From contig JAAYLX010000039.1 of the NCBI GenBank assembly GCA_012521705.1, positions 24,975 to 88,974 of the forward strand: a stretch of 64,000 bases of DNA, in the 5' to 3' direction. Under the pieces are notes generated by a model. That model did no database searches. It was given only the letters and a program-made list of their open reading frames with translations, and was not told where the DNA came from. The translations under genes were made by a program, and so were the position numbers. The stretch is from Clostridiaceae bacterium (GTDB lineage Bacteria; Bacillota; Clostridia; DSM-8532). Below, one piece after another: positions 57,969 through 64,000 of the stretch (position 1 is its first letter; every line of letters begins with the position of its first letter).

Positions 57969-58189
57969 TCCTTTTGTGTTTAAAAGGCATTATGATTTAT
58001 TTTCACATTGCCTGTCATACATGTCAACCATATTCTGCTAATATTTCAATTAAAAAGACAATATAATCATGATCAGAACCTGACAATTATTAGCTCATAT
58101 CATGTTCTATGATGTGATGAACAGCCTTTATGGTATCTTGACATTTTTATAGACATATTTTAATATCAATGATATACGCAAATGCTATG

Positions 58190-58431
58190 ACGGAGAGGAG
58201 TAGGCGAAAAAACCTTTTAGAGAGGAGATGCCGGCAGGCTGAAAGCGTCTCCAGGGCAATTTTTGCTGAAGGTCGCTCCTGAGTATGTACAGCTGAACAA
58301 CAAAAATGGATTTGTTTAAGTAGGTTGTACCGGTTGAGAACCGTTAACTTCTTTCAAAGTGCCCGCAAAGGGAATTTTGGTGGTACCGCGGAAGTCAGCT
58401 TTCGTCCAATTTTTGGATGAAAGCTTTTATT
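58190..58431 (+). ncRNA. T-box leader (Val specifier) upstream of small membrane protein and valS
   Basis: T-box TGGTGGTACCGCGG (58378-58391); Stem I AGGAGTA/..GAAG-GTC-G-CTCCT with GTC at 58272-58274; terminator AGCTTTCGTCCA-loop-TGGATGAAAGCT + T-run. Confidence 0.92.
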
Positions 58432-58777: not shown

Positions 58778-61435
58778 ATGAGTATATTGAAAAAGGAGAT
58801 AGCCAAGACTTATGATCCTAAACAGGTAGAAGATAAGCTTTATGCCAACTGGATGGAAAAAGACTATTTCCATGCAGTCATAGACCCGGACAAAGAGCCT
58901 TTTACTATTGTGATACCACCACCGAATATTACCGGTCAGCTCCATATGGGTCATGCCCTTGACAATACCATGCAGGATATTCTGATCCGTATGAAACGTA
59001 TGCAGGGTTACTGCACCCTCTGGCTTCCTGGTACCGACCATGCCAGTATTGCCACAGAGGTCAAAATTGTGGAGAAGATGGCTGAAGAAGGCATTACCAA
59101 AGAGGATATCGGCAGGGAAGGCTTTTTGGAGCGCGCCTGGGAATGGAAGAAGCAGTACGGGGGAAGAATTGTTGAACAGCTGAAAAAGCTGGGCAGCTCC
59201 TGTGACTGGAAACGTGAAAGATTTACTATGGATGAGGGCCTTTCAAGAGCCGTTCTTGAAGTATTTGTACGTCTCTATGAAAAAGGGCTTATATACAGAG
59301 GCGAAAGGATTATTAACTGGTGCCCCACATGCGGAACCACCATTTCTGACGCAGAGGTTGAGTATGAAGAACAGCATGGCCATTTCTGGCATATCCGCTA
59401 TCCTGTAAAAGATTCGGATGAATTTGTTGAGGTTGCTACAACCCGTCCCGAAACCATGCTGGGCGATACTGCAGTTGCTGTTCATCCTGAAGATGAGAGA
59501 TATCAGCATTTAATCGGGAAAACAGTAATATTGCCTCTTATGAACCGTGAGATACCTGTTGTTGCTGATACTTATGTTGACAGGGAATTCGGTACAGGTG
59601 TTGTTAAAATCACTCCTGCCCACGATCCCAATGACTTTGAAGTTGGTCTGCGTCATAACCTTGAAGTTATCAATGTTATGAACGAAGATGCCACCATTAA
59701 TGAAAACGGAGGAAAATATGCAGGTCTTGACCGCTATGAGGCAAGAAAACAGGTTGTCAAAGACCTTGAAGAGCAGGGCTTCCTCGTAAAAGTAAAGGAA
59801 CATGTTCATAATGTAGGTTCATGCTATCGTTGTTCCACTACCATAGAACCAAGAGTATCCTACCAGTGGTTCGTAAAAATGAAGCCTCTGGCTGAACCTG
59901 CAATTGAAGCTGTAAGAAACGGAACCATCAAGTTTGTTCCCGAGAGATTCTCCAAGATTTATTTTAACTGGATGGAGAATATTCAGGACTGGTGTATTTC
60001 AAGACAGCTCTGGTGGGGTCATCGTATACCGGCATATTATTGTGATGACTGTGGCGAAATAACCGTATCCAGAACAGAACCCGGCGAGTGCCCAAAATGT
60101 CATTCCAAAAAGATAAGACAGGATGAGGATGTACTGGATACCTGGTTCTCATCCGCTTTGTGGCCTTTCTCGACGCTGGGCTGGCCGGATGTTACCGAAG
60201 ACCTGAAGTATTTCTATCCCACAAGCGTCCTTGTTACAGGTTACGATATTATTTTCTTCTGGGTTGCCAGAATGATTTTCTCAGGTCTGGAACAAATGGG
60301 CAAAGAACCATTTAAATATGTTCTTATACATGGCCTTGTACGCGACAGCCTGGGCAGAAAAATGTCCAAATCCCTGGGCAATGGTATTGACCCGTTGGAT
60401 GTGATTGACAAGTACGGTACCGATGCTCTGAGGTATGCTTTGACCATTGGTACTTCTCCAGGAAATGACATGCGCTTCTCCGAAGAGAAACTTGAAGCAA
60501 GCCGCAACTTTGCAAATAAGATCTGGAACGCTTTCAGGTTCGTCATGATGAATTTTGACGAGGACATTGATTTCAGCAAAGTTGATGAGAATAACTATAC
60601 TGTAGCTGACAAATGGATTCTGAGCCGCATCAACACCATTGCAAAAGAGGTTACTGAGAACCTTGAGAGGTTTGAACTTGGTATTGCCCTGCAAAAGATC
60701 TATGAGTTCATCTGGGAAGAATTCTGCGACTGGTATATTGAACTTGTTAAGCCAAGACTTTATGACCGCGAGGCGCAGGGAAGACTGGAAGCTTTGTATG
60801 TGCTCAATAAGGTTCTGACTGATGCAATGAAACTGCTGCATCCGTTTATGCCGTTTATTACTGAAGAAATATACAGCCACCTTATTACAGATTCAGAGAG
60901 TATCATGATATCAAGCTGGCCCACTTACTCTGATAAGGTTCTCTATCCCGAGGAAGAGAAAATGATGGGCTTTATCATGGAATCTGTAAGAGGAATAAGA
61001 AACATCAGAGCGGAAATGAATGTGCCTGTCAACAGAAAGGCCAAAGCCATATTTGTCACTCAGGATGAACTGATTGGCAGAGTAGTGGAGAACGAAAAAT
61101 CCACATTCGGAAGACTGGCATCCATTTCTGACGCTGTGGTACAACAGGATAAGACAGGTATCTCAAATGACGCGGTTGCAGTTGTTGTAAATGGCGCTGA
61201 AATATACTTGCCCCTGGAAGACCTAATCGATCTGGAAAAAGAGATAGAAAGGTTGGAAAAAGAAAAGGAATCCCTTATAATGGAACTTGACAGGGTTAAT
61301 AAGAAACTCGGTAATGAAAGCTTTGTCTCCAAAGCACCGGCAGCAGTTGTTGAGCAGGAGAGGGAAAAACTCAAGAAGTATACCGAAATGTACGAAAAAG
61401 TTATTGAGCGTATTGAGACACTTAAAGGACACTGA
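58778..61435 (+). CDS. valS: Valyl-tRNA synthetase
   Basis: [25 protein letters not shown]-terminal coiled coil. Confidence 0.97.
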
Positions 61436-61579: not shown

Positions 61580-62647
61580 ATTTTCTCAACCAAAAGGGCA
61601 AGAATTCTTAAAGCATTTTTCTCCACCATATTTGCAATATTCTTCAGCATTATTGCATTTCAACACCTCTATGCGGGTTCCAACAACGACGAAGCGGAAG
61701 ATCCTATTGTGACAAATACCCCCTTACCGACATACGAAAGTGAACCGGAGGATGAACCCGAGGAACCCACTTTTATTCTGACAAATTCGCAGAGATATTT
61801 TGAAGATCTGGTGAGTAAGAACAGTACCAATATCCTTCTCCTTGGAACAGAGCCAACCGGATTTAATTTTGATACCATTATTGTTCTGAGCATAGATGAT
61901 GACAATAAGGAAGTTAAAATCATCAGTTTTCCAAGGGATATATATATAGATTATAACGATGAAGTGTTGGGCGCATTAAAGAAAGCAAAGCCTTCGTATC
62001 TGAAAGAGAAAGGTATGCACAGGATAAATGCTGCCCCGTCCATTGGCGATGCCATCGGTTACCAGAAGAATTCAGGCAGGTTTAACAAGCCCTATGTGGA
62101 CTTTATCGCGGATATAATACATGAAGTATTCGGCATCTATATTCAGGATTATGCTTATGTAAAAACTAAGGGATTCAGAAACATTGTTGATTATTTTGGC
62201 GGGGTTACGGTCTATGTACCTGTCTTAATGAATTATAATGATCCCGAACAGAACCTTTATATTTATCTTGAAAAGGGCACACAACATCTCAATGGGCAAC
62301 AAGCGGAAGGTTATGTGCGTTTCAGGCAGGGATATGATGAAAACGGCAAATTCCGGAATTATGGCGATATCTTCAGAAAGCAGAACCAAAGCCGTTTTAT
62401 CCAGGCCTTTATATCACAGCACGTTACCCTGAAGAACCTGACCAAGTTAGGGGATATTGCCAATATTATAAGTTCAAATGTCATAACAAGCGTAAAGGGA
62501 TGGAATTCCATAGTCGAATATGGAGCTATGGCAGAAAGAGCTTTAAAGGAAAACTACAAAATGGTGACAGCTGAACTTGAAGTGAATGAAAAGAACATTG
62601 ACGGCTCTTCGTATGTAATTATTAAGACTAAACCAGTTGGTAACTAA
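61580..62647 (+). CDS. LytR-CpsA-Psr (LCP) family protein, probable ATT start
   Basis: ILLLGTEPTGFNFDTIIVLSIDDDNKEVKIISFPRDIYI...GFRNIVDYFGGVTVYVP...YVRFRQGYDENG; in-frame N-terminal TM IFSTKRARILKAFFSTIFAIFFSIIAFQHLYAG lies upstream of the track start at 61709. Confidence 0.85.
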   Translation: MFSTKRARILKAFFSTIFAIFFSIIAFQHLYAGSNNDEAEDPIVTNTPLPTYESEPEDEPEEPTFILTNSQRYFEDLVSKNSTNILLLGTEPTGFNFDTIIVLSIDDDNKEVKIISFPRDIYIDYNDEVLGALKKAKPSYLKEKGMHRINAAPSIGDAIGYQKNSGRFNKPYVDFIADIIHEVFGIYIQDYAYVKTKGFRNIVDYFGGVTVYVPVLMNYNDPEQNLYIYLEKGTQHLNGQQAEGYVRFRQGYDENGKFRNYGDIFRKQNQSRFIQAFISQHVTLKNLTKLGDIANIISSNVITSVKGWNSIVEYGAMAERALKENYKMVTAELEVNEKNIDGSSYVIIKTKPVGN

Positions 62648-62715: not shown

Positions 62716-62745
62716 GCTGTGCCGTACAAGAGGCACAGCTTTTTC
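62716..62745 (+). terminator. Terminator downstream of LCP gene
   Basis: GCTGTGCC-gtacaaga-GGCACAGC + TTTTT on plus strand. Confidence 0.8.
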
Positions 62746-62771
62746 GCGTTCTCTGCTCAGGAAAGGTGTAA

Positions 62772-62878
62772 GGCTCAATACTTGCTCTCTTGGGGTACGC
62801 GGGAGAACTTGTCATCCGGGCAAGCGCCGCTCGCCCGACGTCCTGTCGACCGTCCCCAATCGAGCTTAGTATTTCGCC
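62772..62878 (-). ncRNA. Candidate structured non-coding RNA (minus strand)
   Basis: Nested complementary arms GGC/GCC, AATACT/AGTATT, GCTC/GAGC, TTGGGG/CCCCAA, ACG/CGT enclosing hairpins; on the minus strand the two internal loops are tandem GA/GA and the GGGCGAGC/GCUUGCCC stem has a G.U pair where plus would have A.C. Confidence 0.65.
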
Positions 62879-63001
62879 AACAACTTTAATCTTAGCTTGC
62901 GGACCGCTCAAAGACTTTGCCGCTTGAACTTAATAGTTTGAACTTCAATAAAGTAATTTTGTAAAGCAGCTTCTTAATTCCACGTCCATAACTTGCGTCG
63001 A

Positions 63002-63487
63002 TTATTGTTTGCTTATTAACTTGCTTATGCTTGATTTTTTCAATCCAGTTCTAATCAGTATTTTTATATTGAACCCTGACTTTCCATAGCTTAGCCTGTA
63101 CCAGTAGTAGTTTATATACTCAATAATTCCGAATAACAGTATACCTGCGGAAACTATCAAATCTGTAACGCTGCTTTTAATGATTGGCATAGCTGCACTA
63201 ACAGCCACCAATATAATCACATTTATCCATCTTAACAACCTGAGGAGTTTTTCAGCCGTAATACCGCTACTTCTCTTTCTGGCTATCAATACATATCTGT
63301 AAAACCAATACAAGCTTCCTTGCAGCAATATGAGCAACAGATACAGAAATGCAATCCGGCATGCATTCCCGGGGTTAGACAATCTGTATAGAACATAAAA
63401 AGTACACAGAGCGGCAAATTCTCCTATGGCCAGGTTTAGCAACCGGCCCTTCAGTTTGTTCAATTCATCACCTCTAAGCTTTGGCAT
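63002..63487 (-). CDS. Hypothetical multi-TM membrane protein (161 aa)
   Basis: Four hydrophobic segments, plausible start and no competing ORF. Confidence 0.65.
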   Translation of the reverse strand: MPKLRGDELNKLKGRLLNLAIGEFAALCTFYVLYRLSNPGNACRIAFLYLLLILLQGSLYWFYRYVLIARKRSSGITAEKLLRLLRWINVIILVAVSAAMPIIKSSVTDLIVSAGILLFGIIEYINYYWYRLSYGKSGFNIKILIRTGLKKSSISKLISKQ

Positions 63488-63656
63488 ACTCCCGTCAGGT
63501 ATGAGATTGTATCAGTAAGATTATATCATACTCAAAGCTACCACAGAGAGTTATATATATCATATAAAGCATATTAAGTCATTCTATATAAAAGTCAGGT
63601 TCTAACTGCCTGTCCCCTTGCATATATTCGGAGGGGACAAAAAATAATATTCGGTG

Positions 63657-63870
63657 TTGACAATACACCATACCCTGTTGTAAGATAATAAAGCCACTGA
63701 TGCGGCGCTGAAAGAGCGCTTGTATAAACGAAAAGAGAGAAAAAAGTGCTTGACATAATCGAGCCGCGGTGGTAAGATGAAGAAACCGTCTTGAGGCGGT
63801 CAGGAAAAAAGAAAACAGCTCGAAAAAAGTTGAAAAAACTCTTGACAGAAAAGCCTGACGGTGATAAGAT
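63657..63870 (+). promoter_or_regulatory. Three tandem strong sigma-A promoters, probable rRNA operon promoter region
   Basis: P1 TTGACA 63657-63662 / TAAGAT 63681-63686 (18 bp); P2 TTGACA 63750-63755 / TAAGAT 63773-63778 (17 bp); P3 TTGACA 63842-63847 / TAAGAT 63865-63870 (17 bp). Confidence 0.85.
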
Positions 63871-64000
63871 AATAAAGCTGTCGCCACTGCCGATGCTAAA
63901 GCGCGAAAGTGAGACAGCGAGCCAAAAAGGCGATGGACATTGAAAATTGAACAGTGTGTGAAGCATCATGTAAATGATGAGGAACTCGTTAAAATGCTTA

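Follow-up and report, generated by a model that had tools for sequence, protein, structure and literature searches.

A diverged, repetitive relative of TwoAYGGAY RNA with two conserved GGA-tipped hairpins as a candidate CsrA binder in Clostridia

What kind of element separates the LCP (LytR-CpsA-Psr) gene (61709-62647, plus strand, PF03816) from a 161-aa frame without assignment (63002-63487, minus strand) in this Clostridiaceae bacterium? These convergent genes flank a compact stretch (62772-62878) that an initial annotation of the window (the whole 64,000-nucleotide stretch of DNA analyzed here) had described as a conserved structured noncoding RNA on the minus strand. The minus-strand sequence of this stretch is exactly as written there, and a compact fold is supported by a predicted free energy of −51.4 kcal/mol (z −5.2), with none of 200 shuffles as good.

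Using the element of the window as a blastn query, we found 25 matching stretches in the host genome, mostly with E < 1e-33. A covariance model built from the copies (R1) identified 22. By aligning the copies plus their flanks we could delimit an element of approximately 206 bp with 20-bp terminal inverted repeats (GTGCAAGTGGCACAGTCTTT...AAAGACTGTGCCACTTGCAC) that are perfect in the best copies. In the window, the whole element, one of about 22 copies, occupies 62724-62929 on the minus strand, as defined by blastn and the alignment of copies. The same alignment places its 5' terminal inverted repeat GTTCAAGCGGCAAAGTCTTT (consensus GTGCAAGTGGCACAGTCTTT) at 62910-62929 and its 3' terminal inverted repeat AAAAGCTGTGCCTCTTGTAC (consensus AAAGACTGTGCCACTTGCAC) at 62724-62743, both on the minus strand. 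The expectation that the 5' end reaches into 62880-62950 was correct, in that the element stops near 62929; the 3' end, which had been left in place, extends as well, to 62724. The consensus fold comprises the terminal inverted repeats, a long arm with GA-type internal loops, and an apical three-way junction. The core, which is the interval first described (62772-62878, minus) and the region covered by R1 and a second covariance model (R2), contains 37 base pairs and scores 118.7 bits with R1 and 112 bits with R2. By R1 score the window copy ranks 17th of 22; it has a broken pair in hairpin P3 (one C.A mismatch, in addition to one G-to-U change) and several changes in its repeats, and is probably a decayed copy. 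Remnants of a second copy precede or follow several copies, and partial and nested copies occur. Folded along its full extent, one copy (L009) forms a single arm (−118.8 kcal/mol, z −11). An internally deleted derivative (L182, G000:C2:78312-78470), located beside other repeat fragments, retains a short pair of the element's terminal repeats but lacks the RNA core. An FMN riboswitch (L010, 1794-1921, minus) and a SAM riboswitch (L017, 3665-3766, minus) lie near two other copies with no evident connection to them.

The structure of this element is under selection. RNAalifold applied to 20 full own-genome copies returned a consensus fold of 60 pairs, 14 of which show compensatory changes. With relatives included (alignment A6, 33 sequences), 22 of the 37 core pairs are changed on both sides, a count that leans towards the model because A6 is a model-guided alignment fitted to it. 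This alignment replaced a MAFFT alignment of both subfamilies in which the basal helix was misaligned. Cells of A6 are paired in 96.8% of cases; sliding the partner by 1-3 columns lowers this to 31-40%, and none of the shuffles attained the covariation score of A6. The slid controls and a MAFFT alignment of own-genome copies (A2) agree with the A6 structure. Compensatory changes in A6 affect four of the five inner pairs and both outer pairs of hairpin P2 (62832-62852, minus), as well as six of the 12 pairs of hairpin P3 (62799-62830, minus). The outer arms GGC/GCC, AAUACU/AGUAUU, GCUC/GAGC and UUGGGG/CCCCAA and the hairpin CGAC-AGGAC-GUCG, all drawn from the window copy by the initial annotation, match this covariation-supported structure, while its arm ACG/CGU corresponds to no conserved helix. 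The second hairpin proposed there, GGGCGAGC-GGC-GCUUGCCC, is an alternative fold possible in the window copy: the conserved pairing at this site is P3, GCGGCG-CUUGCC-[CGGAU]-GGCAAG-UU-CGCCCGC, with 98% of cells paired in A2 columns 50-81.

Of the 33 copies, 31 retain one of the two symmetric GA/GA loops and 32 the other, and one-sided changes lead to G.U more often than to A.C (41 versus 19 cells in the 33 copies; 38 versus 13 in own-genome copies). Since G.U is commoner than A.C and the GA/GA loops persist, the evidence supports a minus-strand RNA, the strand that had been chosen from the window copy by the same kind of reasoning. With strong covariation and homologues in several bacterial families, the finding is a real, conserved structured RNA on the minus strand. 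Strand-specific structure and multiple copies would also be expected of a single-stranded DNA hairpin recognized by a transposase or recombinase, as in IS200/IS605 or attC sites. We consider this explanation very improbable, since IS200/IS605 lack the terminal inverted repeats that the element has, an autonomous partner was not seen, and GGA-tipped loops and co-occurrence with csrA (see below) would go unexplained.

The element occurs in eight of 32 genomes of the host family, the host and seven others, with 22, 16, 9, 7, 6, 4, 3 and 1 copies. The relatives differ from the host in the ends of the element: in G007, G005, G011 and, for part of the copies, G004, the elements are mostly 256-265 bp long and enclosed by an outer repeat of 15 bp (GGGGCTGTCTCAAAA/TTTTGAGACAGCCCC), and by direct reading the flanks in G028 and G031 are GCGGCAATCTC...GAGATTGCCGC. 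The pattern of the 3' arm also matched metagenome-assembled "Clostridiaceae bacterium" genomes (AS02, AS04, AS08, AS09, AS24) and a Bacillota genome (FC6). In the class as a whole (392 genomes), R2 matches outside the host family came from G046, G382 and G314, which belong to two other families. The copies in these three genomes carry a P3 loop of the type CUGGAUG or CACGGAUG, except L089, in which P3 is degenerate; the copy in G382 lies between GGGGCTGTCGCAAAA-type ends. The flanks of L090 and L056 hold further palindromic repeats, of the type GGGGACGGTTCC...GGAACCGTCCCC, which surround the RNA or lie close to it.

The terminal inverted repeats, the short length, the absence of coding capacity and the multiple dispersed, intergenic copies are shared with MITEs and REP-like repeats. 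Could the element be purely selfish, that is, the body of a non-autonomous transposon in which quasipalindrome correction generates compensatory changes without any RNA function? Copies in both orientations, partial and nested copies, the near-constant length of about 260 bp between the GGGGCTGTCTCAAAA ends of relatives, and ends of the same type paired without RNA all fit this idea. Correction would erase mismatches, but the mismatched GA/GA loops are kept together with the GGA tips, and G.U exceeds A.C two- to threefold. In contrast to MITEs and REP-like repeats, the element shows an RNA structure that is conserved across families whose outer ends differ completely, and this core matches an RNA class discovered without regard to transposons. 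Target-site duplications, another MITE feature, were not detectable beyond chance (mean flank matches of 1.79 versus 1.75 in shuffled flanks, own-genome copies). No autonomous or longer element with the same ends was seen in the host draft genome, where IS copies often break contigs, and a search for longer elements with GGGCTGTCTCAAAA ends in four relatives, with contigs often broken in the same way, returned only short pairs. A purely selfish repeat is rather unlikely. An origin from a plasmid or phage was rejected, as neither collection contained similar DNA.

Gene context bears on a further possibility, namely a cis-acting 3'-UTR element that terminates or stabilizes transcripts of upstream genes in a REP-like manner, with or without CsrA. 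Nearly every copy is located downstream of at least one gene, and with gene calls taken as simple longest frames, nine of the 19 scorable own-genome copies lie between convergent genes and one between divergent genes. In the window, the plus strand at 62716-62744 reads GCTGTGCC-gtacaaga-GGCACAGC-TTTTT (by direct reading; absent from the pattern-scan list). This segment is likely the intrinsic terminator of the LCP gene, with the terminal repeat of the element forming part of it, and the repeat may serve as a donor of terminators to convergent genes. On the other hand, copies between tandem genes show no strand preference (four sense, five antisense in the host genome), so that many would be antisense, and a 3'-UTR function leaves the conserved GGA loops unexplained. 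A mostly convergent or tandem context without strand preference is more readily explained by a mobile repeat inserting away from promoters than by a dedicated 3'-UTR device, which we judge to be quite improbable.

The feature that the initial annotation missed, along with the repeat-family nature, is the pair of GGA loop tips. P2 (loop AGGAC, GGA at 62841-62843) and P3 (loop CGGAU, GGA at 62815-62817) both end in N-GGA-N closed by a C-G pair, and only GGA is fixed. It is found in 32 of 33 P2 loops (AGGAC, AGGAU, AGGAA, CGGAU, CGGAC, CGGAA; the exception is one AGGGC) and in all 33 P3 loops (CGGAU, UGGAU, CGGAC, UGGAC, CGGAA). The two GGA sites are about 26 nt apart at the three-way junction, an arrangement that would suit a single CsrA dimer. 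In one host-family copy (L054, 1501-1652 in G004:C21), GGA of the P3 loop is interrupted by a hairpin-like insert of about 44 nt.

These loops recall the binding sites of CsrA. P2 of the own-genome copies reads CAGGA(C/U/A)G (CAGGACG in the window), which is identical letter for letter to the repeat of CsrB, CAGGA(U/A/C)G (PMC7652899). In distant homologues, whose stems are unrelated, P2 retains ACAGGAUGU, close to the CsrA SELEX consensus RUACARGGAUGU, in which GGA mostly lies in a hairpin loop (PMC7652899). Like CsrA-binding sponge sRNAs (PMC7652899, PMC4333381), the element has GGA motifs paired in the loops of its hairpins. Judging from sequence, both of the conserved tips resemble sites at which CsrA would dock. 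Two properties argue against CsrA binding: SELEX favoured 6-nt loops and ligands avoided very stable stems (PMC7652899), whereas the loops of the element have 5 nt and the P3 stem is very stable.

Does the element belong to a known RNA class? A cmscan of the window yielded no Rfam match in the element region even at E 5, four chance matches elsewhere, and only a T-box leader at the curated cut-off. Neither the window nor ten loci with other own-genome copies matched TwoAYGGAY, raiA, 6S or tmRNA. The latter three were the families that the initial annotation had named for checking, with raiA as the suggested candidate. This suggestion is the one point in favour of a curated family, to which we assign virtually no weight; raiA RNA (RF03072) resembles the element in being a clostridial structured RNA, but its model does not match. 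The broader suggestion of a clostridial class held up by another route, a bridge to TwoAYGGAY (RF01731; Weinberg 2010, PMC2864571). R2 finds four intermediates, of which L091 (45.0 bits) and L090 (43.2 bits) pass the Rfam gathering cut-off of 43 bits for RF01731, while L089 (38.8 bits) and L092 (38.2 bits) fall below it; a host-family copy (L053) scores 32.4 bits. In the reverse direction, R2 finds the RF01731 members L158 (best, E 3e-9), L164, L159, L160 and L161 at the same coordinates, these members having come from an independent class search; 15 of the 20 RF01731 loci tried gave no R2 match. Since intermediates pass the RF01731 model and R2 finds RF01731 members, the element is a diverged TwoAYGGAY relative below the detection of the Rfam model.

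The architecture agrees with this assignment. Like TwoAYGGAY, the element carries two neighbouring hairpins, each with GGA in its terminal loop, atop a long outer stem (A6), contains tandem GA pairs in this stem, and occurs in multiple copies in Clostridia. TwoAYGGAY itself generally appears to be multi-copy, since many genomes reach about 7-9 scored candidates in the class search, a lower bound because no more than about that number of candidates was scored per genome. Unlike TwoAYGGAY, the element is GC-rich and bounded by MITE-like ends, and literal AYGGAY loops are missing from the window copy: its P2 loop is CAGGAC, which lacks one base relative to the Rfam model, and its P3 loop is CCGGAU, with ACGGAU occurring in P3 of the G028 and G031 copies. 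As neither the literal loops nor the Rfam score conform, we file the element as a sister subfamily instead of a plain TwoAYGGAY member. By these model and motif comparisons, it is a diverged, repetitive and previously unrecognized TwoAYGGAY subfamily. The tandem GAs of TwoAYGGAY had been noted before, together with the proposal that it is a CsrA-binding sRNA of Clostridia (PMC4333381), so the CsrA idea is not new. New here is the subfamily itself, together with the findings that it is spread on MITE-like repeats and that the RNA class as a whole co-occurs with csrA. In the literature we found no paper linking TwoAYGGAY to transposable elements and no experimental follow-up of the 2014 computational proposal.

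RF01731 is present in 36 of the 392 class genomes. Of these, 31 encode csrA, as compared to 96 of the 356 others (Fisher 3.5e-12), and adding carriers of the subfamily gives 36 of 42 versus 91 of 350 (4.8e-14), although heavily sampled families inflate such genome counts and phylogeny was handled through genus and family counts only. By genus, csrA accompanies the RNA in 23 of 24 cases versus 77 of 222 overall; by family, in 12 of 12 versus 37 of 87 (P 1e-5). Inside the host family, csrA was rejected as a separator of carriers, being present in six of eight carriers and 16 of 24 non-carriers. Seven RNA carriers, including G005, G011 and G029, yielded neither csrA nor fliW; four of them are less than 90% complete, and G011, G029 and G298 are 94-98% complete. 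The host genome encodes csrA at G000 C5:11982-12134 with fliW adjacent, next to a flgL-like gene (named by eye from sequence), and host CsrA has a VHRKEI stretch around the RNA-binding arginine.

CsrA is a flagellar and carbon regulator. To our knowledge, FliW is its only recognized antagonist in such bacteria, and we know of CsrA sponge RNAs as established only in Gammaproteobacteria. We conclude, with a probability of roughly 0.6, that the window contains a degraded MITE-like copy of a diverged TwoAYGGAY subfamily that would act by two-loop CsrA binding, through titration or transcript marking. The analysis establishes the repeat family, its covariation, the GGA loops, the TwoAYGGAY link and the csrA-fliW pair of the host; transcription, CsrA binding and a sponge effect are inferred, as follows. 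A pattern scan found no promoter at the window copy; read-through from neighbouring genes would produce an RNA of about 205 nt. This RNA would fold into the long GA/GA arm carrying two hairpins at the three-way junction, each with an N-GGA-N loop, and one CsrA dimer could bind both loops of one RNA. Dispersed copies might jointly titrate CsrA or mark the carrier transcript for CsrA binding. Because the hairpin tips resemble CsrA docking sites, the copies could serve as sponges for CsrA, and a role as candidate CsrA binder or sponge is plausible. The broader idea, that a transposable repeat spreads a two-site sponge in Clostridia and that the level of free CsrA is set, alongside FliW, by how many copies of a mobile RNA are present and not by a dedicated sRNA gene, is tentative, with the odds against it.

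The CsrB, CsrC and RsmX/Y/Z sRNAs of Gammaproteobacteria, which sequester CsrA, likewise have hairpins whose loops contain CAGGA(U/A/C)G or NGGAN (PMC7652899). Unlike these sRNAs, to which no sequence homology was detected, the element has no identified promoter or terminator of its own, and offers two sites per RNA in many dispersed copies instead of gathering many sites on a single RNA. The survival of the GGA loops in a diverged subfamily amid near-total change, together with the csrA association across the class, strengthens the proposal of a clostridial CsrA-RNA. Copies multiplying on transposon-like ends would tie regulator dosage to a mobile element, and this mode of spread may explain why searches for single-copy sRNA genes miss such RNAs.

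Two other features of the window lie outside the element. The T-box leader (RF00230, 113 bits; 58178-58412, plus) is located upstream of the valyl-tRNA synthetase gene (58778-61435). At 63640-64000 (plus), near the contig end, promoter-like TTGACA/TAAGATAATAAAG repeats form an array that ends in GAAAATTGAACA and resembles the leader of an rRNA operon.
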